Virus record (IMG/VR): IMGVR_UViG_3300010885_018063 | Coordinates: 1 to 24,753 of that record | Source: a virus | Length of the DNA stretch: 24,753 bases | Reading direction: 5' to 3' (one strand) | Shown: positions 2,763-24,753 of the stretch, in pieces | How positions within the stretch are numbered: the stretch's first letter is position 1 | Layout: every line of letters begins with the position of its first letter | The notes under the pieces: generated by a model | Databases searched by the model: none | The model's input: the letters and a program-made list of their open reading frames with translations, nothing else | What the model was told of the DNA's origin: nothing | Made by a program: the position numbers and the translations under genes

Positions 2763-3974
2763 TTATTTTTTATCGTTAATGTTTAATCCTTCAAATTTTA
2801 TTGTGAAATCTATGAACCTCTGCTTAAGTATCAATAACTTCTCATCAGAGTATGTTTGCTTAAGTAACTTAGTGAACTTGGTATCTACGTTGTAGTATGC
2901 CCGAATGATGTCGTCAGTAGGGTTCTGCAAAATCATCATAAGTAACTTTGTTCGCCACTTGAGTGTAGTGATATTAGGTACTGCACTGATGATACGGAAC
3001 TCAACCCTATCGTGATGTATCTTGATAGCTTGGTACTTCTCGTTATCTTCCTCGAGGTCTCTGTTACTCTTACCTTTGGAATAGTTCTTGTCAACTCTAC
3101 CATAGTACAAGGCGTAGAATAGTGGGGTATATCCCTTGAGCTTGTCGAATAGCTGATTGCCATTCAATCCCTTCTCTGATAAGTGTATATGACCACCACA
3201 TCTCGGGGATATTTTTGCATTGATATGCCTAACGAGTACCTCATTACTTTCGATATGCTCAAAGATTTTATCAATGTTGAACTCGAATGTAGGACTGATT
3301 AACTCATAGCCACAGTCATCACTAAGACTGCCATCTCTTTCCTTACGCCACTTGTAGTCGGTCTCTTCCTCGAAGTCTTGGATGTTGATGCTTTCTAATA
3401 CATCTTCATCTTCTTTCTCAATCTCGTACCCTATACGATACTTGGACTTACCATCGAAGGTCTTGGATTGGTAGCTACCATTGTGATAACCTCTGACGTA
3501 TTCTTCTTTCTCGTCAGGTGGGTATGAGTACCAACCATCGCCATCGTGGTAGTACGCATCGTCTTCGTTCCATATCTCGCCCTCGTCTTGAACATACACA
3601 AGATTGTGATACTCTAACGCATCGCTGTCGTAGTAGTCGCCACGATAAAAATGTAAGTCAGAATTACTCTCTGCCCACCTACGACTATATGCGGTCTCAT
3701 TTCTATGCTCATACACAGTAACCGAATCCTCATCGCTGAACCAATCATCTTCTCCGTTGCAATAGAAAGCATTACCTCTTTCTAATACATTTCCGTAATA
3801 GTCTTGAACGTACTCATCTCCACCATAGAAACGATTGCCACTCTTAAACCAATCCCCATTATCAAAATCATCAATGGTAATTAAACCCTCTTTGATACTT
3901 TCAAGCGCATACTCTATGCGCTCTCTGTTGTCATCTAATACTCTGTAAAGCATTCTTAATTCTGATAATCTCAT
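2763..3974 (-). CDS. Putative amidoligase (glutamine-synthetase fold, Amidoligase_2-like)
   Basis: The 403-aa protein has a C-terminal half with the marks of the Amidoligase_2 family: YRIGYEIEKED (about residue 180), RDGSL followed by GYELISPTF (about 215-230), RCGGHIHLS (about 260) and RVEFRI (about 330). In this family these acidic and histidine residues bind ATP and metal for forming an amide or isopeptide bond. The substrate is not known. The N-terminal 170 residues are a chain of short aromatic, acidic beta-hairpin repeats (for example FYCNGEDDW, YYDSDALEYHN, IWNEDDAYYHD) that may bind the target. It adjoins the class II glutaminase gene, a pairing known for amidoligases. GC is high (50% in one line), with C- and G-ending codons. 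The start overlaps the 39-aa gene as ATGA. Confidence 0.8.
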   Translation of the reverse strand: MRLSELRMLYRVLDDNRERIEYALESIKEGLITIDDFDNGDWFKSGNRFYGGDEYVQDYYGNVLERGNAFYCNGEDDWFSDEDSVTVYEHRNETAYSRRWAESNSDLHFYRGDYYDSDALEYHNLVYVQDEGEIWNEDDAYYHDGDGWYSYPPDEKEEYVRGYHNGSYQSKTFDGKSKYRIGYEIEKEDEDVLESINIQDFEEETDYKWRKERDGSLSDDCGYELISPTFEFNIDKIFEHIESNEVLVRHINAKISPRCGGHIHLSEKGLNGNQLFDKLKGYTPLFYALYYGRVDKNYSKGKSNRDLEEDNEKYQAIKIHHDRVEFRIISAVPNITTLKWRTKLLMMILQNPTDDIIRAYYNVDTKFTKLLKQTYSDEKLLILKQRFIDFTIKFEGLNINDKK

Positions 3975-5658: not shown

Positions 5659-5750
5659 CGGGGCGTGGTGCAACCAATGAACGGGGCGTGGTGCAACCAA
5701 TGAACGGGGCGTGGTGCAACCAATGAACGGGGCAAAGGTGCAACCAATAG
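5659..5750 (+). repeat. GC-rich tandem array of 23-bp repeats
   Basis: Three identical 23-bp units (5659-5681, 5682-5704, 5705-5727), beginning CGGGGCGTGG and ending AACCAATGAA, are followed by a fourth with several changes (5728-5750) and more decayed GC-rich copies. Each exact unit contains the dyad TGGT-GCA-ACCA. The 23-bp period is not a multiple of three and the array has no start on the plus strand, so it is not coding. Iterons for a replication protein, or operators for an oligomeric regulator, are the main possibilities. Confidence 0.75.
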
Positions 5751-5976: not shown

Positions 5977-6219
5977 ATGAAACAGCCTTTAAATTTAAGG
6001 AACAGTATTTATCAGCAAAAGACTTCGAATGGTTTTAGTGGATTAACTGTAAAGGATGGTATGTTGATTAACGACAGACCTGATGGACAAACCGGTATTG
6101 CACAAATTGCTCAGATGAAGAAGGCTATTAAGGTAGCTGAAAAGATTTTTATTGTGGCTAGAGGAACTTCTATGGGAGAAATGATGTCTGATATGGGAGA
6201 TTGTTCTGACTGTGATTAG
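5977..6219 (+). CDS. Hypothetical 80-aa protein, single-gene transcript
   Basis: The protein starts MKQPLNLRNSIYQQ, after a leader of A residues, and ends with the acidic, cysteine-bearing tail MGDCSDCD. A central amphipathic helix (TGIAQIAQMKKAIKVAEKIF) is likely. No signal peptide and no family is recognised. The gene stands alone between its own -7 box (5943-5950) and a strong terminator (6235-6269), unlike every other gene here, which suggests separately controlled, perhaps early or constitutive expression. It is the first gene to the right of the 23-bp repeats, so a regulator or replication accessory protein is possible but unproven. Confidence 0.6.
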   Translation: MKQPLNLRNSIYQQKTSNGFSGLTVKDGMLINDRPDGQTGIAQIAQMKKAIKVAEKIFIVARGTSMGEMMSDMGDCSDCD

Positions 6220-6525: not shown

Positions 6526-6533
6526 TATATTTG
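6526..6533 (+). promoter_or_regulatory. -7 box of the chaperonin operon
   Basis: TATATTTG fits TAnnTTTG and lies 26 bases upstream of the groEL ATG (6560), the same distance as for the 80-aa gene. There is no TTG at -33. The leader is A-rich with no Shine-Dalgarno sequence. Confidence 0.55.
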
Positions 6534-6559
6534 CGCATATCAATTAAAAATCAAATAAA

Positions 6560-8170
6560 ATGTTAGAAAATCAAGGTTATTCTCCTAAAGATTTGCAATT
6601 TGGAGCAGAAGGAAGGAAAAAATTAGTTAGTGGAGTTATAAAAATGTCTAAAGCTGTAAAGGCTACATTAGGTCCGGGAGGTAATCCTGTGTTGATTGAG
6701 AGTCCAAATCACACTCACGGCATTACTGTTACTAAAGATGGGGTAACAGTTGCAAAGTCGATTGATTTGCTTGACCCTTCGGAGAACCTTGCGGTTAAGA
6801 TGATGAAAGAGGCTGCTGAGAAGACTGCTACTTCTGCGGGAGATGGAACGAGTACTGCTATTGTTCTTACTGAGGGATTGGTATTGAGTGGACTTGAGCA
6901 TATAGGTGACGATTTAAACCGTACTGAGGTATTAAGATGTATGGTGGAGATAAGCGATAAAGTGGTGGATAAGTTACGAAGACGTAGTAAGAGAGTTACA
7001 AGTTCAATGTTGGTTGATGTAGCAAGTATATCTGCAAATAATGATAGAGAGATAGGGAAAATAATATCTGAGGTATATAAAGATGTTGGAAAGACGGGTA
7101 TTGTTACGGTAGAGAAAAGTCAAAATGATGAGACTTATGCAGAGACCACAATGGGATTGAAATTTGATAGGGGATATTTAAGTCCAATGTTTATTAATGA
7201 TTCCAAAAAAGACGAGTGCGTATTTGAGGATACTATGGTTTTAGTTGCTGATATGGAGATTACAAATATACTTCAGATTGAGAGCGTACTTAAACCAATT
7301 GTTAGTGAAGGTAAAAAATTACTAATCATTTCGCCTTGTGGAGCAAACTTAATTAATAGTTTAGCTGCAAATGTAATGAAAGGAAATATTAAAGTATGTG
7401 CAGTTCCTCCTCCTAGTTTTGGTTATAAACAACACGAGCTTATGCAGGATATTGCAATTAGTGTTGGTGCTACTTATTTTAGTGAAAAGACAGGTGATGA
7501 CTTAAGTATTATTAATTACGGAGACCTTGGACACGCATCTAAAATAATTGTTAGTAAAGATAAGACTGTTATTATAAAATCAGATTTGAAATTAGACCAA
7601 AAAGTTATTGAGGAAAGGGTAAATCAGTTATGGGATGCCCATAAAATAGCCACAAAAAAGCACGATAAAGACTTTATTTTGGAGAGAATCGCCTCTTTAA
7701 CGGGTGGAATAGGTGTTATTTTCGTAGGTGGACAAACTGATTTAGAGCAAAAAGAGTTGTATGACAGGGTTGATGATGCTGTTTGCGCAGTACGTTCTGC
7801 ACTCGAGGAAGGGATATTACCGGGAGCAGGAAAGGCTTTACTTGAAGAATCAGCTGCTTTGCAGATTGATGAGGCTAAAAGTCCTGAGCATAATGCGGCT
7901 GTGATGATTTTAAAAACAGCGCTTATGTCTCCATTCTTACAGATACTTTCAAATGCAGGATTGAAAGCAGAGGATATTTATAAAGATGGTATTGCTGAAG
8001 GGCAAGGTTACAACTTGAAGACAAGACAGTATGGAGACCTGATTAAGATGGGAGTAATTGACCCATTGAAAGTAACTAGAAGTGCTTTACAAAACGCAGT
8101 TAGTGTAGCTGTAACAATATTGAGTACTAATGCTATAATTACTTTAGCTAGAAGTTATGAGCAATCTTAA
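6560..8170 (+). CDS. groEL: Phage-encoded chaperonin GroEL (Hsp60)
   Basis: This is a 536-residue group I chaperonin, near the 548 of E. coli, with all three domains. Nucleotide site: TLGPGG (36-41), KDGVTVAK (59-66, Asp60 matching Asp52), GDGTSTA (94-100, Asp95 matching Asp87), and RVDDAV, whose second Asp matches the hydrolytic Asp398, followed by LEEGILPGAGKALL. The apical domain keeps FDRGYLSP of the substrate and GroES binding surface; the hinge and C-terminal part keep DPLKVTRSALQNA. Differences: GDGTSTA instead of GDGTTTA, GAG instead of GGG, and no Gly-Gly-Met tail (it ends ITLARSYEQS). The catalytic residues look intact, so it should form an ATP-driven folding ring, probably for virion proteins. 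It precedes a 50-aa gene and groES. Confidence 0.95.
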   Translation: MLENQGYSPKDLQFGAEGRKKLVSGVIKMSKAVKATLGPGGNPVLIESPNHTHGITVTKDGVTVAKSIDLLDPSENLAVKMMKEAAEKTATSAGDGTSTAIVLTEGLVLSGLEHIGDDLNRTEVLRCMVEISDKVVDKLRRRSKRVTSSMLVDVASISANNDREIGKIISEVYKDVGKTGIVTVEKSQNDETYAETTMGLKFDRGYLSPMFINDSKKDECVFEDTMVLVADMEITNILQIESVLKPIVSEGKKLLIISPCGANLINSLAANVMKGNIKVCAVPPPSFGYKQHELMQDIAISVGATYFSEKTGDDLSIINYGDLGHASKIIVSKDKTVIIKSDLKLDQKVIEERVNQLWDAHKIATKKHDKDFILERIASLTGGIGVIFVGGQTDLEQKELYDRVDDAVCAVRSALEEGILPGAGKALLEESAALQIDEAKSPEHNAAVMILKTALMSPFLQILSNAGLKAEDIYKDGIAEGQGYNLKTRQYGDLIKMGVIDPLKVTRSALQNAVSVAVTILSTNAIITLARSYEQS

Positions 8171-8309
8171 AGATATATTATATTCTTTAGAAAGAATAAA
8201 GGCAAGACATATAATTGAAAAAGATTATGAGAGAGCCGAAAAAGTAAGAGAAGTAATAAAACTAATAAAAGAGAAATTATGGCATTACAACCCATCGGGA
8301 AATACATAG
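8157..8309 (+). CDS. 50-aa UVR-motif-like protein between groEL and groES
   Basis: The ATG at 8157 lies 14 bases inside the end of groEL and the stop (TAG 8307-8309) lies 31 bases inside groES, so all three would be translated as a coupled unit. The 50 residues contain LERIKARHIIEKDYERAEKV followed by REVIKLIKE, which resembles the UVR helical hairpin seen in UvrB/UvrC and in McsA-type adaptors (pattern L..I....I.E.DYERA...R..I..I). The rest is a short polar tail. The gene could be an adaptor for the chaperonin or a DNA repair-like partner. Being short and overlapping, it could also be untranslated, but its packing is like that of the other real small genes. Confidence 0.5.
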   Translation: MSNLKDILYSLERIKARHIIEKDYERAEKVREVIKLIKEKLWHYNPSGNT

Positions 8310-8542
8310 TCATCAAGACCATTGATGAAGAATTGAAAACAGAGTCAGGATTATTTCTCTCAGGAGAGGATATGAATCAAATGCGTTACAAACGTGGCTT
8401 AGTAATAGAGGCAGGAACTGATGTTCCAAACATCAAGAAAGATGATGACATATACTACGATAAAGCTCACGGATTTACAATGTTAATTGATGACAAGCAA
8501 TATACGATTATTCAGGAGAGAGATGTCGTTGTTGTTTTATAA
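8279..8542 (+). CDS. groES: Co-chaperonin GroES (Hsp10)
   Basis: The 87-residue protein has the GroES layout: the N-terminal strand LQPIGKYIVIK, a mobile loop at about 16-36 with the hydrophobic tripeptide LFL (residues 25-27, matching Ile-Val-Leu of E. coli GroES that docks on the GroEL apical domain), RGLVIEAG, a short stretch in place of the long roof hairpin (GTDVPNIKKDD), IYYDKAHG, and the final strand IIQERDVVVVL. The shortened roof recalls the wider dome of T4 gp31, a comparison from family knowledge, not measured here. It should cap the phage GroEL. The start follows a leader with no ribosome-binding motif and overlaps the 50-aa gene. The end overlaps the opposing regulator gene by 35 bases. 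Confidence 0.9.
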   Translation: MALQPIGKYIVIKTIDEELKTESGLFLSGEDMNQMRYKRGLVIEAGTDVPNIKKDDDIYYDKAHGFTMLIDDKQYTIIQERDVVVVL

Positions 8543-8951
8543 GTTTATTCATTTCAATAATCATATCACGGTAAACTTTATCTGAGTATGATACATTTTT
8601 ATGAAACATTTTATTATAGGAATTACTAACGGGGATTTCTTCCCCGCTTAGTTTCCTATATATAGACTGAATCATTCTATTTGTTTTTATTGTTAATTGA
8701 TAAAGAGCTTTTCTTTTACCGACTCTATTTCTAAATCTTACAATCCATTCTTCTTTTACTAATCTTTGGAATCTTGTAACATCCCAACCTAAAAGGTTGT
8801 CAAACTCATCAAATTTATCTCTTCCAAAATACTTTTCAGAGTATAAAAATAATAACATATCTAAGTCAGCTTGGGTTAGTCCGTATTTTATTTTTACGAA
8901 TTGGCGAATTACTCTCCAATATTTTAAGTAATCATCTTGATTTGATTTCAT
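8508..8951 (-). CDS. Winged-helix (MarR-like) DNA-binding regulator
   Basis: The 147-aa protein begins MKSNQDDYLKYWRVIRQFVK. Residues about 5-100 follow the order of a MarR-type winged helix: a first helix (YWRVIRQFVKIKYGL), a helix TQADLDMLLFLYSEKYF, a recognition helix region GWDVTRFQRLVKEEWIVRF, and a basic wing RNRVGKRKALYQLT, then a helical tail. It would bind DNA as a dimer. It is the only minus-strand gene inside the rightward arm. Its promoter faces that of the next plus-strand operon, so it probably represses or switches that operon and itself. A phage replication-type winged helix is the main alternative. Confidence 0.6.
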   Translation of the reverse strand: MKSNQDDYLKYWRVIRQFVKIKYGLTQADLDMLLFLYSEKYFGRDKFDEFDNLLGWDVTRFQRLVKEEWIVRFRNRVGKRKALYQLTIKTNRMIQSIYRKLSGEEIPVSNSYNKMFHKNVSYSDKVYRDMIIEMNKLIKQQRHLSPE

Positions 8952-8974
8952 TTAATTTTTTTTTTATACATTTG
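8942..8974 (+). promoter_or_regulatory. Promoter of the rightward small-gene operon
   Basis: TTG (8942-8944) is followed after 22 bp by TACATTTG (8967-8974), fitting TTG-N17-23-TAnnTTTG. The expected start is near 8981, 25 bases before the ATG at 9006. Its upstream half lies inside the first codons of the regulator gene. Confidence 0.65.
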
Positions 8975-8976
8975 TA

Positions 8977-9006
8977 CAAAGTTATTAATTAAAAATCAAA
9001 TAACAA
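8977..9006 (-). promoter_or_regulatory. Promoter of the winged-helix regulator gene
   Basis: On the minus strand TTG (9006-9004) is followed after 19 bp by TAACTTTG (8984-8977). It faces the plus promoter with only 2 bp between the two -7 boxes (TACATTTG-TA-CAAAGTTA), and its -33 TTG overlaps the start codon of the 59-aa gene. Both promoters cannot be occupied at once. Confidence 0.6.
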
Positions 9007-18670: not shown

Positions 18671-18898
18671 ATGGATATTAGAAAAATATCAATCGGACCT
18701 GACTATAAAAATGGTGCTATGCACTACTTGGTAGGTCAAAAAATACTTGGAGATTCTCACGAAATTCATCATATTAAACGACAATTAGAAACAGGAAATA
18801 TATTAATTTACATTATTAATAAAAAAGAAGAGGTAGTTCTTTGGAAAGAGTTTACCTTTACAGTTCCAATTTCAATCGAATTTAATATAGACTTTTAA
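18671..18898 (+). CDS. Hypothetical 75-aa protein
   Basis: The protein starts MDIRKISIGPDYKNGAMHYL and contains a His-rich segment DSHEIHHIKRQL, then a beta-rich end. I believe the motif KISIGPDYK-x-GAMHY recurs in Bacteroidota phages, but its role is unknown. Its stop overlaps the ATG of the next gene (TAATG), so it is translated with the GroES-like protein. Confidence 0.55.
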   Translation: MDIRKISIGPDYKNGAMHYLVGQKILGDSHEIHHIKRQLETGNILIYIINKKEEVVLWKEFTFTVPISIEFNIDF

Positions 18899-19461
18899 TG
18901 AAATCACCATTTTATTTTATAGTAAAACCTATAAACGGAAAACGATATGATAATACGAGAGATATAGGGGTAAATAATTTTATCATTAGCACTTCGGAAG
19001 AAGACCATAAATCCTCTAATAGATATGCAAGTGTTGTTGAACTTCCTATAGGTTATTCAGGTCCTATATCAATAGGAGATACTCTTCTTGTGCATCATAA
19101 TGCATTTAAGTATTATAACGATATGAAGGGTCGTCAAAAAAGCGGAAAAAGTTTTTTTAAAGATGATTTGTTTTTTATCGAAACAGACCAATTCTTTTTA
19201 TATAAAAAAGATTCAGTTTGGAATACTTATGATAAGTATTGTTTTGTTAGACCAATTGCGGCTACAGATTATTACATAGAGAAATTTTGCGCAGAAGAAC
19301 CTTTGATGGGTCAGATGGTTTATCCAAATGAATACCTTTTAAGTAAAGGAATTAAAAAAGACGATTATGTTTGTTTTTCTCCTGATAGTGAATATGAGTT
19401 TACTGTTGAAGGAGAAAAGCTATATCGTATGTATGACCACCAAATAACAATTAAGCTATGA
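18898..19461 (+). CDS. Possible tandem GroES-like protein, 187 aa
   Basis: The protein seems to have two units with the GroES strand order. Unit 1 (about 5-103) has FIVKPINGKRYDN, a variable loop, ASVVELPIGYSGPISIGDTL (like the 'V-x-AVG-x-x-x-VGD' strand pair of GroES), VHHNAF and IETDQFFLYK. Unit 2 (about 114-187) has YCFVRPI, a loop through residue 138, GQMVYPNEYLLSKGIKKDDY, CFSPDSEYEF, EGEKLYRMYDHQITIKL. Positions of the KP/RP strand, the GD/DD turn and the final strand fit GroES. If right, it would be a second, two-domain co-chaperonin or a re-used fold in the virion. The assignment rests on pattern only. It overlaps the oxygenase start by 4 bases. Confidence 0.4.
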   Translation: MKSPFYFIVKPINGKRYDNTRDIGVNNFIISTSEEDHKSSNRYASVVELPIGYSGPISIGDTLLVHHNAFKYYNDMKGRQKSGKSFFKDDLFFIETDQFFLYKKDSVWNTYDKYCFVRPIAATDYYIEKFCAEEPLMGQMVYPNEYLLSKGIKKDDYVCFSPDSEYEFTVEGEKLYRMYDHQITIKL

Positions 19462-20024
19462 TAAATATTGTAGATGATTTTTTAGAAGAACCTATTTATT
19501 ACTCTACCTACCATAGGTTGTTAAATAATAAATTTCAAGATGTAGAAGTAGGAGATAAACATTTTTGGGTGCAATATAGCGATAAGGACTTTGATGAAAT
19601 GATATTAGAAAAACTATCTGCAATAGATGGTGTACATAGAGAATGTTTATTAGGTTTCTTCAGGGTAGCGACAGAAGAGTTTGATACCGATTGGAGAATA
19701 CACGCAGACTCAAAAGTAGGCGATATTAGACCCGAAAGAGCGCTAGTTCTATATATATCTCCATCAACAAAAGAAGGGCTACACGGAACCGCTTTTTGGA
19801 GACACAAAGAGGTAGGTTACGAGATGCCTTTAGATGTTTCTAATGAAGAGGCAGATAGGTTTCTTTCAGAGGAAGCAAACAACTTAGATAATTGGGATTT
19901 ACATTCTGTAGTAGGGTATAAACCCAATCGTGCACTTATGTATCCTTCTAATTATTTTCATAGTAAATATCCAAATACAGGTTGGAAAGAAGGTAGAATG
20001 GTTTATGTAATGTTTTATAGATAG
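19458..20024 (+). CDS. 2-oxoglutarate/Fe(II)-dependent oxygenase
   Basis: The 188-aa protein shows the facial triad of this superfamily: H82-x-D84 (WRIHADSKVGD), a distal His168 (SNYFHSKYP) and Arg180 (GWKEGRMVYVMFYR) 12 residues later to bind 2-oxoglutarate. The core also keeps LVLYISPS and GTAFW strands of the double-stranded beta helix. Family members hydroxylate proteins (prolyl or other side chains), nucleic acids or small molecules; the target is unknown. The start overlaps the stop of the GroES-like gene (ATGA), so the two are probably made in equal amounts and may act on the same client. It lies between fibre and packaging genes. Confidence 0.75.
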   Translation: MINIVDDFLEEPIYYSTYHRLLNNKFQDVEVGDKHFWVQYSDKDFDEMILEKLSAIDGVHRECLLGFFRVATEEFDTDWRIHADSKVGDIRPERALVLYISPSTKEGLHGTAFWRHKEVGYEMPLDVSNEEADRFLSEEANNLDNWDLHSVVGYKPNRALMYPSNYFHSKYPNTGWKEGRMVYVMFYR

Positions 20025-20028
20025 TATT

Positions 20029-20313
20029 ATGACAGCTAAAGAAACAAAACTAAAAATAATTGCTGCCGGTCATAAAGCGGTATTAGAACTTATTAAAGTT
20101 GCCGAAGAGTCAATTTTAAATCCTGATGTAGAAGGAGATGATTTGGCTGCAGATAAATTAAAAAATGCAGCAGCTACAAAAAAATTAGCTATATTTGATG
20201 CTTTTGAGATTCTTAATAGAATAGAAACTGAGAAAAATAATCTTGAAATAGCAGAAAAAGGAGAAAGTAAAATAGATACAAAACAAGGGTTTGCAGAAAG
20301 AAGGTCAAAATAA
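20029..20313 (+). CDS. Possible small terminase subunit, 94 aa
   Basis: A helical protein starting MTAKETKLKIIAAGHKAVLE, with acidic centre and a basic end QGFAERRSK. The ordered helices and the location, overlapping the large terminase start by 23 bases, fit a small terminase subunit that recognises DNA and oligomerises through helices. No sequence motif proves it. The alternative is an unrelated hypothetical protein. Confidence 0.4.
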   Translation: MTAKETKLKIIAAGHKAVLELIKVAEESILNPDVEGDDLAADKLKNAAATKKLAIFDAFEILNRIETEKNNLEIAEKGESKIDTKQGFAERRSK

Positions 20314-22537
20314 TATCTATACTATAGTTAAAGACTATATACCATCCCATTCTATTACTAAGAAGAATGGCAATAAGTCTTGGTTATACGGTTATAACGA
20401 GCAATATGATATTGTAATAATATCAAAGACCGGTGAAATAGGTGAGATAGTTAATATCTCAGGTCTTTATATTGCATTACCTAAAGCTCCAAAAGAATGT
20501 TTTAAAAGAAGTACCTCTAAAACAGAACAATATTGGGAGAGAGAGTCAATGCCTAAACAACTCTCAAGAATACAATCAATCTTTCAATGGAATGAAATGC
20601 CGTCTGAATTTAAAAACAGATGGGTAGATTATATTGAGCAAGAGTTTGATTATAGGGAAAAAGGATATTGGTTTATGAATAATGGCGTACCTACTTACAT
20701 TACGGGTTCTCATTATATGTATCTACAATGGTCAAGTATTGATATTGGTTATCCTGACTTTCGTGAAGCAAATAGAATTTATTGGATTTTTTGGGAAGCT
20801 TGTAAAGCTGACAATAGAAGTTTTGGAATGATATATTTAAAAATTAGACGTTCAGGATTCTCTTTTATGTCATCATCTGAATGTGTGAATATAGGAACTC
20901 TTGCTAGAGATGCAAGGATTGGTATATTATCAAAAACAGGGGCTGATGCTAAAAAAATGTTTACTGATAAAGTAGTTCCTATTAATAGCAGACTGCCTTT
21001 CTTCTTTAAACCTATTATGGATGGTATGGATAAACCAAAGACAGAGTTGTCTTTTAGGGTACCTGCGTCTAAGATTACAAAAAAGAATATGTTTGACACT
21101 GAGGCTGAAACTATAGAAGGGTTAGATACCTCAATAGATTGGAAGAATACAGAAGAGAACTCTTACGATGGAGAAAAATTATTATTTTTAGCTCACGATG
21201 AGAGTGCTAAATGGCTAAAGCCCAATAATATACAAAATAATTGGAGGGTAACTAAGACTTGTTTGAGATTGGGTTCTAAAATTATTGGAAAGTGTATGAT
21301 GGGCTCAACCTCAAATGCATTATCTAAAGGAGGTCAGAACTATAAGGATATGTTTGAAGATTCAGATGTAAAACATCGTAATGCAAATGGTCAAACTAAA
21401 TCAGGACTTTACAGATTATTTATTCCTATGGAATGGAATATGGAGGGGTTTATAGATTTGTATGGTATGCCTGTATTTAAAAAACCTGAAGAACCTATTA
21501 AAGGGGTTGATGGTATGATGATTAAAAACGGAGCTATTGACTATTGGAGTGCGGAGGTTGATTCTCTTAAGAATGATGCTGATGCTTTAAATGAATTTTA
21601 TCGTCAGTTTCCAAGAACAGAATCTCACGCATTTAGAGATGAAAGTAAGCAGTCTTTGTTTAATCTTACAAAAATATACCAACAGATTGATTATAATGAT
21701 AATCTTATAAAAGAACATTTTATTACTCGTGGGTCTTTTCATTGGAGAGATGGTATGAAAGATACTCAAGTTATTTTTACACCTGATTCAAGAGGTAGAT
21801 TTTTAGTAAGTTGGACACCTGCAAAACATCTGCAGAATAATGTTCACACAAGGAACGGAATGAAGTATCCCGGTAATGAACATATTGGGTCGTTTGGTTG
21901 TGACTCTTATGATATATCAGCAGTAGTAGGAGGAAGAGGGTCTAATGGTTCTTTACACGGACTTACTAAATTCAATATGGATGATGCTCCTTCAAATGAA
22001 TTTTTCTTAGAATACATTGCTAGACCTCAAACTGCTGAAATATTTTTTGAAGAAGTATTGATGGCTTGTGTTTTTTATGGTATGCCAATTTTAATTGAAA
22101 ATAATAAACCTAGGCTTTTATATCATTTTAAAAATAGAGGTTATAGACATTATTGTCTAAATAGACCTGACAAACAATATAATAAATTATCAAAAACAGA
22201 ACGAGAACTTGGAGGAATACCTAACACATCTGAAGATGTAAAGCAATCTCACGCTTCTGCAATTGAATCTTATATAGAAAAATATATTGGAATAGATTTC
22301 ACAGGAGATTATAGGGATGGAGGAGATATGGGCACTATGCCATTTATTAGAACTTTAGAAGATTGGTCAAAGTTTGATATAAATGACAGAACTAAGTTTG
22401 ATGCATCTATAAGTTCAGGACTAGCTATTATGGCTAATCAGAAGCATTTATATATGCCTGAGAAAAAAGATTCAAAAATAAGTATTAACTTCGCAAGGTA
22501 TTCGAATGATGGAACAAATAGTGAATTAATTAGATGA
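20291..22537 (+). CDS. terL: Large terminase subunit (ATPase and nuclease)
   Basis: The 748-aa protein is the DNA packaging motor. Its ATPase part has a Walker A-like KIRRSGFSFMSS at 184-195, in which the usual GK(S/T) is GFS and basic residues lie before it, Walker B LLFLAHDE at 297-304 with catalytic Asp303-Glu304, and the coupling motif MGST near 337-340. The C-terminal RNase H-like nuclease has SFGCDSYDIS (first acidic residues) and ILIENNKPRLLYHF later. It translocates genome DNA into the prohead and cuts it. The start overlaps the upstream gene and its stop overlaps the portal start (ATGA), as in a compact packaging operon. The length is that of a long Bacteroidota podovirus-type terminase. 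Confidence 0.8.
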   Translation: MQKEGQNNIYTIVKDYIPSHSITKKNGNKSWLYGYNEQYDIVIISKTGEIGEIVNISGLYIALPKAPKECFKRSTSKTEQYWERESMPKQLSRIQSIFQWNEMPSEFKNRWVDYIEQEFDYREKGYWFMNNGVPTYITGSHYMYLQWSSIDIGYPDFREANRIYWIFWEACKADNRSFGMIYLKIRRSGFSFMSSSECVNIGTLARDARIGILSKTGADAKKMFTDKVVPINSRLPFFFKPIMDGMDKPKTELSFRVPASKITKKNMFDTEAETIEGLDTSIDWKNTEENSYDGEKLLFLAHDESAKWLKPNNIQNNWRVTKTCLRLGSKIIGKCMMGSTSNALSKGGQNYKDMFEDSDVKHRNANGQTKSGLYRLFIPMEWNMEGFIDLYGMPVFKKPEEPIKGVDGMMIKNGAIDYWSAEVDSLKNDADALNEFYRQFPRTESHAFRDESKQSLFNLTKIYQQIDYNDNLIKEHFITRGSFHWRDGMKDTQVIFTPDSRGRFLVSWTPAKHLQNNVHTRNGMKYPGNEHIGSFGCDSYDISAVVGGRGSNGSLHGLTKFNMDDAPSNEFFLEYIARPQTAEIFFEEVLMACVFYGMPILIENNKPRLLYHFKNRGYRHYCLNRPDKQYNKLSKTERELGGIPNTSEDVKQSHASAIESYIEKYIGIDFTGDYRDGGDMGTMPFIRTLEDWSKFDINDRTKFDASISSGLAIMANQKHLYMPEKKDSKISINFARYSNDGTNSELIR

Positions 22538-24753
22538 AAAACGTAACAATAGATATTACATCGTCAGTCTTTCCAAGTCAGTTAGCTACTGATGCAGAGA
22601 AAGCATCAGAGCAATTTGGATTACAAGTAGGACAAGCTATTCAATATGAGTGGTTCCGTAAGGATGGAAATAATTGTAGATATTACGGACAATGGAGAGA
22701 ATTTCATAGATTAAGATTATATGCAAGAGGAGAACAATCAGTTGGTAAATATAAAAATGAATTAGCTATTGATGGTGATTTATCATATTTGAATTTAGAT
22801 TGGACTCCTGTTCCTATTATACCTAAATTTGTTGATATTGTTGTAAATGGAATGTCTGATAGATTATTTAAAGTTAAGGCATATTCTCAAGATGCTATGT
22901 CTCAATCTAAAAGGAGTAAATATCAAGATATGATTGAAGGACAGATGATTGCTAAGCCTGTTTTAAATCAAATAAAAGAAAGCACAGGATTTGATGCATT
23001 TACAATTGACCCTGATAAACTTCCTGAGACAGATGAAGAGTTATCTCTATATATGCAACTTAACTACAAACCTGCGATAGAAATTGCAGAAGAAGAAGCT
23101 ATAAACACGATTTTTGACGAGAACCATTATAATGATATTCGTTGGAGATTAGATTATGACGCTACAGTACTTGGTATATCTATAGCTAAGCACGAGTTCC
23201 TTCAAGGAACAGGAGTTAAAATATCTTATGTTGACCCTGCGAATGTGGTATATAGTTATACAGAAGACCCTCATTTTAAAGATTGTTTCTATTGGGGAGA
23301 AATTAAAACTCTTCCAATTAGTGAGTTAATGAAAATTGACCAAAGTCTTACTAAAGAAGATTTACAGGAAATAACTCAATATAGTCAAGGTTGGTATGAT
23401 TATTTTAATGTTGCTCAATTTTATGAGAATAGTGTATTCTCAAGAGATACCTGTACGTTAATGTATTTTAATTATAAAACTACAAAAAAAATAGTTTATA
23501 AGAAAAAAATTCTTGATAATGGTGGTTCTCGAATTATACCTAAAGACGATACTTTCAATCCTCCTGCGCAAATGATGGAAGAGGGTAATTTTGAAAAAAT
23601 TGAAAAAACTATTGATGTTTGGTATGAAGGTATTATGGTAATGGGAACTAATATTCTTTTGCAATGGAAAATGTCTGAGAATATGGTAAGACCAAAATCA
23701 GCTTCTCAACACGCTTTACCAAATTATGTAGCTTGTGCTCCAAGAATGTATAAAGGAGCTATTGAATCTTTAGTTCGTAGGATGATACCATTTGCTGACC
23801 TTATTCAAATTACTCACTTGAAGTTACAACAAGTAATCAATCGAGTTGTGCCTGATGGTGTATTTATTGATGCAGATGGTCTTAATGAGGTTGACCTAGG
23901 AAATGGTGCTGCATATAATCCTGAAGATGCTTTAAGACTTTATTTTCAAACCGGTTCTATAATCGGAAGAAGCTTTACGGGAGATGGTGATTTTAATAAT
24001 GCAAAAATTCCTATTACACAATTAAGTTCAAATACAGGTGTAGGTAAAACTCAAATGCTTATTACTAATTATAATCACTATATGGATATGATTAGAACCG
24101 TAACCGGACTTAATGAAGCAAGAGATGGTTCTACTCCTGACCCTAATTCATTAGTCGGGTTGCAAAAGTTAGCAGCTTTAAATTCAAATACAGCTACACG
24201 TCATATACTTGAAGGTGGTCTATATATTTATCGCTCAATGGCAGAAGCATTGACTTATAGAATTGGAGATATTTTAGAATATTCTGATTTTAAAGATGAA
24301 TTTATAAATCAAATAGGTAGATACAATGTATCTATATTAGGAGATATTTCTGACCTTTATATTTATGATTTTGGTATTTTTATTGAAGTAGCCCCTGATG
24401 AAGAACAAAAAGGACAACTTGAACAAAATATACAAATAGCTCTATCTAAAGGAGATATTAACCTTGAGGATGCTATTGATATTAGAGAGATAAAAAATCT
24501 TAAACTTGCTAATCAATTATTAAAGATGAAGCGAGTTAAGAAACAAGACCGTGAAGAGCAAATGAAAATGCAGCAACAAGCAATGATGGCTCAGCAACAA
24601 TTGAAGTCTCAAGAAATGGCAGGTCAATTAGCTATACAAAAAATGCAAACAGAAGTTCAAACTAAAAGTCAGTTAATGCAAATGGAAGCTGAATTTAGTA
24701 TTAAGAAAGTTCAGGTTGAAGCTGAATTAAAATCGCATTTAATGGCAGAGGAA
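22534..24753 (+). CDS. Portal protein, cut by right window edge
   Basis: The frame begins at ATG 22534 (overlapping the terminase stop) and is open for 740 codons to the last base, so the stop lies outside. The start MKNVTIDITSSVFPSQLATD, the domain with YEWFRKDGNNCRYYGQWREF, the middle RRMIPFADLIQITHLKLQQV, and TGLNEARDGSTPDPNSLVGL match portals of Bacteroidota podovirus-like phages. The last 75 residues form a Q/M/K/E-rich coiled coil (for example MKMQQQAMMAQQQLKSQEMA), typical of the barrel or crown end. The portal forms the dodecameric DNA channel at the head vertex and docks the terminase. I see crAss-like features but cannot place the family. Confidence 0.8.
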   Translation, partial: MKNVTIDITSSVFPSQLATDAEKASEQFGLQVGQAIQYEWFRKDGNNCRYYGQWREFHRLRLYARGEQSVGKYKNELAIDGDLSYLNLDWTPVPIIPKFVDIVVNGMSDRLFKVKAYSQDAMSQSKRSKYQDMIEGQMIAKPVLNQIKESTGFDAFTIDPDKLPETDEELSLYMQLNYKPAIEIAEEEAINTIFDENHYNDIRWRLDYDATVLGISIAKHEFLQGTGVKISYVDPANVVYSYTEDPHFKDCFYWGEIKTLPISELMKIDQSLTKEDLQEITQYSQGWYDYFNVAQFYENSVFSRDTCTLMYFNYKTTKKIVYKKKILDNGGSRIIPKDDTFNPPAQMMEEGNFEKIEKTIDVWYEGIMVMGTNILLQWKMSENMVRPKSASQHALPNYVACAPRMYKGAIESLVRRMIPFADLIQITHLKLQQVINRVVPDGVFIDADGLNEVDLGNGAAYNPEDALRLYFQTGSIIGRSFTGDGDFNNAKIPITQLSSNTGVGKTQMLITNYNHYMDMIRTVTGLNEARDGSTPDPNSLVGLQKLAALNSNTATRHILEGGLYIYRSMAEALTYRIGDILEYSDFKDEFINQIGRYNVSILGDISDLYIYDFGIFIEVAPDEEQKGQLEQNIQIALSKGDINLEDAIDIREIKNLKLANQLLKMKRVKKQDREEQMKMQQQAMMAQQQLKSQEMAGQLAIQKMQTEVQTKSQLMQMEAEFSIKKVQVEAELKSHLMAEE

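Follow-up and report, generated by a model that had tools for sequence, protein, structure and literature searches.

A phage GroEL-GroES pair with an altered lid groove and a candidate tandem Cpn10 co-chaperonin in a fragment of a Bacteroidota podovirus

The window, by which we mean the whole stretch of DNA analysed, is an entire IMG/VR virus entry of 24,753 bases, the end of which falls within a portal gene. The encoded portal shares 77% identity with the one of ctfjg026 (MW202828; a complete 60.9-kb phage genome) and 45-56% with the portals of Elemovirus and Maribacter phage Panino, identities that mark the window as a 24.7-kb piece of a Bacteroidota podovirus of about 60 kb. The features on which the argument rests are as follows.

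5977..6219, + strand: 80-aa ORF, function unassigned, a conserved neighbour 5' of groEL found in 76 compared sequences
6526-6533, + strand: -7 box TATATTTG of the putative groEL-groES unit, 26 nt 5' of the groEL ATG
6560..8170, + strand: groEL, 536 aa, a group I chaperonin whose ATPase site is intact and whose lid groove and ring interface are altered (Pfam and PHROG matches, residue table, dN/dS)
8157..8309, + strand: 50-aa ORF spanning the groEL-groES gap, status uncertain (from the ORF list; similar ORFs in 8 of 83 sequences)
8279..8542, + strand: groES, 87 aa, mobile loop SGLFL, roof shortened (Pfam Cpn10, alignment, dN/dS)
8508..8951, - strand: 147-aa ORF convergent with groES, overlapping its end by 35 bp, with weak likeness to SarA/Rot regulators
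18898..19461, + strand: tandem Cpn10 protein, 187 aa, proposed second co-chaperonin (phrog_13932, AF2 model, Cpn20 fold match)
20291..22537, + strand: terminase large subunit (phrog_6681, E=1.6e-184), context of the tandem Cpn10 gene
22534..24753, + strand: portal protein, lineage marker, cut by the window end (phrog_6547 portal)

Elsewhere in the window, two neighbouring genes on the - strand resemble, weakly in each case, a class II glutamine amidotransferase domain (1894-2757) and an amidoligase (2763-3974). The AT-rich gap that separates the leftward and rightward gene blocks holds a GC-rich, iteron-like array of about four 23-bp repeats (CGGGGCGTGGTGCAACCAATGAA; 5659-5748), possibly an origin or a regulatory site. 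A search for RNA families and tRNAs found none.

The order groEL then groES, with the same neighbours, recurs in all 80 of the nearest IMG/VR loci and is also seen in the GenBank phages ctfjg026 and Elemovirus. The 147-aa ORF lies tail-to-tail with groES in each of the 80 IMG/VR loci, overlapping it by 4-41 bp, and its matches to SarA-type regulators are weak. In bacterial loci where both genes were seen, groES was upstream in 75 of 75, so that the reversed order pointed out in the initial annotation is real, but as a trait of the whole lineage it is no oddity of this phage. Cellulophaga Pervagoviridae and Immutovirus have the usual order. As 80 relatives keep both frames, with dN/dS values of about 0.08, chance does not account for the pair.

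A Bacteroidota-type -7 box (TAnnTTTG) stands upstream of groEL in 75 of the 80 loci, as compared with 4.9% of shuffled sequences, and no + strand copy of this motif lies between groEL and groES in the window. This agrees with the initial placing of both genes behind one box, and the two apparently form a single transcription unit. Sigma-70-like hits in the gap (9, against 5.9 with an sd of 2.2 in shuffles) were not convincing. Across 80 relatives the spacer spans -26 to 1406 nt, and in some it is roomy enough for extra small genes. The leader of groEL (6526-6559) is also found ahead of the gene that opens the rightward block at 9006 (leader 8967-9005); in both a -7 box is followed by AATTAAAAATCAAATAA directly before the ATG, which may be a mark of shared timing.

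Phage-encoded GroEL and GroES have been annotated and published before. The window GroEL matches 267 of 50,697 GenBank phage records, GroEL has been reported in Bacteroidetes phages (PMC5332604) and GroEL plus GroES in Panino (PMC11590407), and the pair described here is therefore another member of a known group and no new phenomenon. The uniqueness of a complete pair was accordingly rejected, and with it the rarity first ascribed to such pairs, since they are annotated in many Bacteroidota phages. One apparent phage case, the GroEL of 'Acinetobacter phage MD-2021a', was excluded, as it is surrounded by ordinary chromosomal genes and groups with Acinetobacter; this GenBank contig is probably bacterial DNA inside a phage record. 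What goes beyond this known group is the presence of a putative tandem lid gene among head genes and the replacement of GroEL contacts. The initial annotation had missed both the tandem Cpn10 gene near the terminase and the remodelled groove and ring interface.

The window GroEL has the full-length Cpn60 domain architecture (Pfam Cpn60_TCP1, PF00118, E=1.4e-55, residues 30-528; 189 bits against a cut-off of 34.3). It passes the NCBIfam subfamily NF009487 (488, cut-off 352) and falls below the cut-off of TIGR02348, the NCBI equivalog for ordinary bacterial GroEL (455.8 against 582.1 bits), a score that identifies it as a divergent homologue rather than an ordinary orthologue of bacterial GroEL. 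As first annotated, the nucleotide-site residues are in place: T30, G32, K51, D52, D87, T89, T91, S151, D398, G414 and D495 (E. coli numbering) are all present, the sole exception named being T90, which is Ser. The ATPase residues D52, D87, D398 and D495 are shared with the relatives, and the catalytic residues are retained in all of the 80 IMG/VR relatives in which the column is filled. With a median dN/dS for groEL of 0.08 in the window family, the ATPase site is under purifying selection.

In the tree, the window clade and ctfjg026 cluster together (100/100), and their long stem is placed outside the bacterial GroELs. The proteins of Elemovirus and Calle fall on that side too, although this placement (91/94) is not firm. 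The nesting within a host clade of normal gene order that the initial annotation had named as a refuting result was not seen. The branches are long, and a grouping with Bacteroidota was not rejected by the AU test (p=0.31). That p-value, and the fact that the nearest cellular relative by score is a Bacteroidota GroEL, would suit a plain groESL copy of host origin, taken along as general cargo to boost host folding with no special phage client. We regard this reading as very unlikely. The identity to any GroEL across 199 Flavobacterium-group genomes is at most 42%, a value on which recent host capture was rejected; the gene order is opposite to that of the bacterial loci, and the phage family carries fixed changes at sites that are invariant across bacteria. 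The initial proposal of a self-contained phage machine is thus upheld insofar as the pair is phage-owned, constrained, apparently co-transcribed and outside host clades, and it loses its claim to be special.

The GroES protein is recognized by Pfam Cpn10 (PF00166, E=5e-13, residues 3-86; 49.3 bits against a cut-off of 21.1), and the median dN/dS of its gene is 0.083. Its mobile loop aligns as KTESGLFLSGED, in which the SGLFLS segment contains the LFL tripeptide noted at the outset; relatives have LIL, LFL, IIL and similar, and the tripeptide is hydrophobic and ends in Leu in every phage GroES compared. The alignment also bears out three further peculiarities that had been remarked upon. The roof hairpin of GroES is about 10 residues shorter than that of E. 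coli; the GAG in place of GGG in GroEL corresponds to G415A, fixed in 80/80 relatives; and the GGM tail is found in none of 80 phage relatives, as compared with 71 of 80 bacterial GroELs.

The residues of the GroEL groove that contact the IVL tripeptide of the lid are L234, L237 and V264 (PMC3514286). At position 234, where 80 bacterial GroELs have Leu, Ile, Val or Met, 78 of the 80 members of the phage family have Glu; V264A is found in 80/80, and L237 is retained in 77. Other groove residues (F204, Y199 and N265) are kept along with L237. The ring-ring surface has substitutions at K105, A109, R452, E461 and V464, which for K105 and E461 mostly reverse the charge, and the D83-K327 bridge is lost, with Thr or Ser at 83. 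R452, E461, S463 and V464 are the positions mutated in SR1, a single-ring variant of E. coli GroEL. From these sequence changes the GroEL family is probably specialized for its own lid, and it may function as single rings. In our view the remodelling of the groove and ring interface bears more on mechanism than does the GAG or the absent tail, and the effects we ascribe to all of these changes, the lost bridge included, are inferences. The charge at position 234 could weaken the binding of any lid, the phage's own included, and in that respect it counts against a self-contained machine.

The tandem Cpn10 protein matches phrog_13932 ('co-chaperonin GroES', E=4.2e-19). Its AF2 model, built with 71 relatives, has a pLDDT of 83.5 and predicts two Cpn10-fold domains per chain, and each half alone matches GroES structurally. 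By sequence only the C half is strongly supported, with a profile match to bacterial Cpn10 (96%, E 1.9e-9); the weak profile match of the N half counts against the proposed machine, and when this domain was modelled alone GroES chains ranked first with a middling Z of 7.4. Among PDB chains the whole model is matched best by 7ekq_R, which is a Cpn20 from Chlamydomonas (Foldseek E 8.7e-5, Z 10.3, rmsd 4.3, 158 residues). Mobile loops in both domains define the Cpn20 family. In the phage protein a mobile-loop-like segment is found in the first domain only, where the disordered loop is of the GGx[DE]FI type in most relatives and reads VNNFIIS in the window; the loop of the C domain is short, with no clear tripeptide.

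As in the window, the tandem gene of ctfjg026, Elemovirus and Panino is found close to those for terminase and portal, and in Cellulophaga phage phi18:3 it is close to presumed head genes. The 188-aa protein encoded by the adjoining gene (19458-20024, + strand) matches DUF6445 and phrog_1644 'minor coat protein'. In 25 IMG/VR records chosen by GroEL, which may be fragments, 22 carry the tandem Cpn10; in 24 large records chosen by tandem Cpn10, which may likewise be fragments, the same 20 have both GroEL and GroES. The profile that finds 22 of those 25 phage records finds no tandem Cpn10 in 395 Bacteroidota host genomes. In the part of the literature that was covered, the papers on Cpn20 or tandem GroES with phage concern, by title, chloroplast or other cellular chaperonins.

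The location of the gene, the restriction of the mobile-loop-type loop to one domain, and a best structural match that comes from a ClpP complex would also fit a Cpn10-fold packaging or head-assembly factor with no co-chaperonin function. We consider this somewhat unlikely. The structural proteins of phi18:3 are marked by MS/MS and its tandem protein is unmarked, and the low-confidence stretch of the model (residues 21-40) falls at the mobile-loop position, as expected if that loop is disordered. The tandem protein is probably a second co-chaperonin of the Cpn20 type encoded with the head genes, a proposal supported by its sequence, model and fold together with its co-occurrence with GroEL and its location.

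Among known systems, ctfjg026 (Podoviridae sp.) and the Elemovirus (Flavobacterium) phages are most like the window in having groEL before groES, a convergent ORF after groES and a tandem Cpn10 near the terminase. Their GroELs are 59% and 35% identical, respectively, to that of the window, and they differ in that ctfjg026 keeps GGG whereas Elemovirus keeps L234 and R452. The Cellulophaga Pervagoviridae (phi38:1, phi40:1, Calle) likewise have a phage GroEL, a Cpn10 and a tandem Cpn10 homologue, but in the usual order Cpn10 - ORF - GroEL and with a GroEL that is 36% identical. Cellulophaga phi18:3 (Pachyviridae) has a small and a tandem Cpn10, and its complete genome contains no GroEL match. T4 brings only its lid, gp31, and uses host GroEL as the barrel; gp31 is a phage lid of the GroES fold, which the tandem Cpn10 domains also match structurally. 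The best-studied phage chaperonins, those of EL and OBP, operate with no lid, and we know of no GroES adjacent to GroEL in phage EL. EL gp146 is, as in the window, a divergent phage GroEL, with a conserved nucleotide pocket, and works in the absence of a lid (PMC7185714); the window alone of the two pairs GroEL with an adjoining GroES.

These comparisons suggest another arrangement, in which the phage GroEL would act as a holdase with no lid, like EL gp146, while GroES and the tandem Cpn10 retune host GroEL as gp31 does in T4. The altered lid-contact residues, the two Cpn10-type genes of phi18:3 and the lack of interaction between the EL GroEL and E. coli GroES (PMC7185714) are in its favour, and we nevertheless think it rather unlikely, since GroEL and GroES adjoin in all 80 loci and occur together in 20/20 records, and the groove retains L237, F204, Y199 and N265.

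The reading we prefer, to which we give a probability of roughly 0.55, is that of a self-contained phage machine that folds virion proteins and is served by GroES and by a second lid resembling Cpn20. GroEL would be the ATP-driven barrel of a phage-owned group I chaperonin kept throughout this lineage of Bacteroidota podoviruses, and the adjacent GroES its dedicated lid, whose SG[LI]xL mobile loop would bind the altered groove, to which the host lid would probably bind poorly. The changed ring-ring surface would let the rings part easily or act singly. The clients would be virion proteins, most likely head proteins, folded during infection, the capsid protein or fibre first suggested being a putative client. 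The tandem Cpn10 may join a mixed lid or serve as a lid for particular clients; in relatives that lack GroEL it would act on host GroEL. Support for this machine comes from the kept catalytic residues and low dN/dS of both genes, from the adjacency and co-occurrence of groEL and groES, from the Leu-ended tripeptide of every phage GroES and, as regards an altered groove and rings, from L234E, V264A and the ring-ring replacements. It is also supported by the related phage phi38:1, whose GroEL is produced during infection and has been detected in infected cells and free virions (PMC13288928). On the other side, the lid-independent EL GroEL counts against the machine, as does phi18:3, whose two lids evidently do not need a phage barrel.

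In chloroplasts, Cpn10 and Cpn20 combine into seven-domain lids (PMC5780408). The window phage, too, has a protein with two Cpn10 domains per chain beside a single-domain Cpn10, and a chloroplast-like mixed lid could by analogy be possible, although its tandem protein is viral, is 14% identical to Cpn20 in the structural match and differs in its loops. A fuller version, which we think unlikely, would combine single-domain GroES and tandem subunits into one lid on a barrel rewired to refuse host GroES; GroEL-less relatives would put both lids on host GroEL, so that the lids may predate the barrel. Isolated relatives share the same kinds of lid gene whether they possess GroEL, as Elemovirus and Cellulophaga phi38:1 do, or lack it, as phi18:3 does. 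The lineage thereby opens three questions to experiment: why a phage should bring a barrel of its own, whether lids and barrel co-vary in a way that shuts out partners from the host, and whether the tandem-lid design of chloroplasts arose in viruses too.
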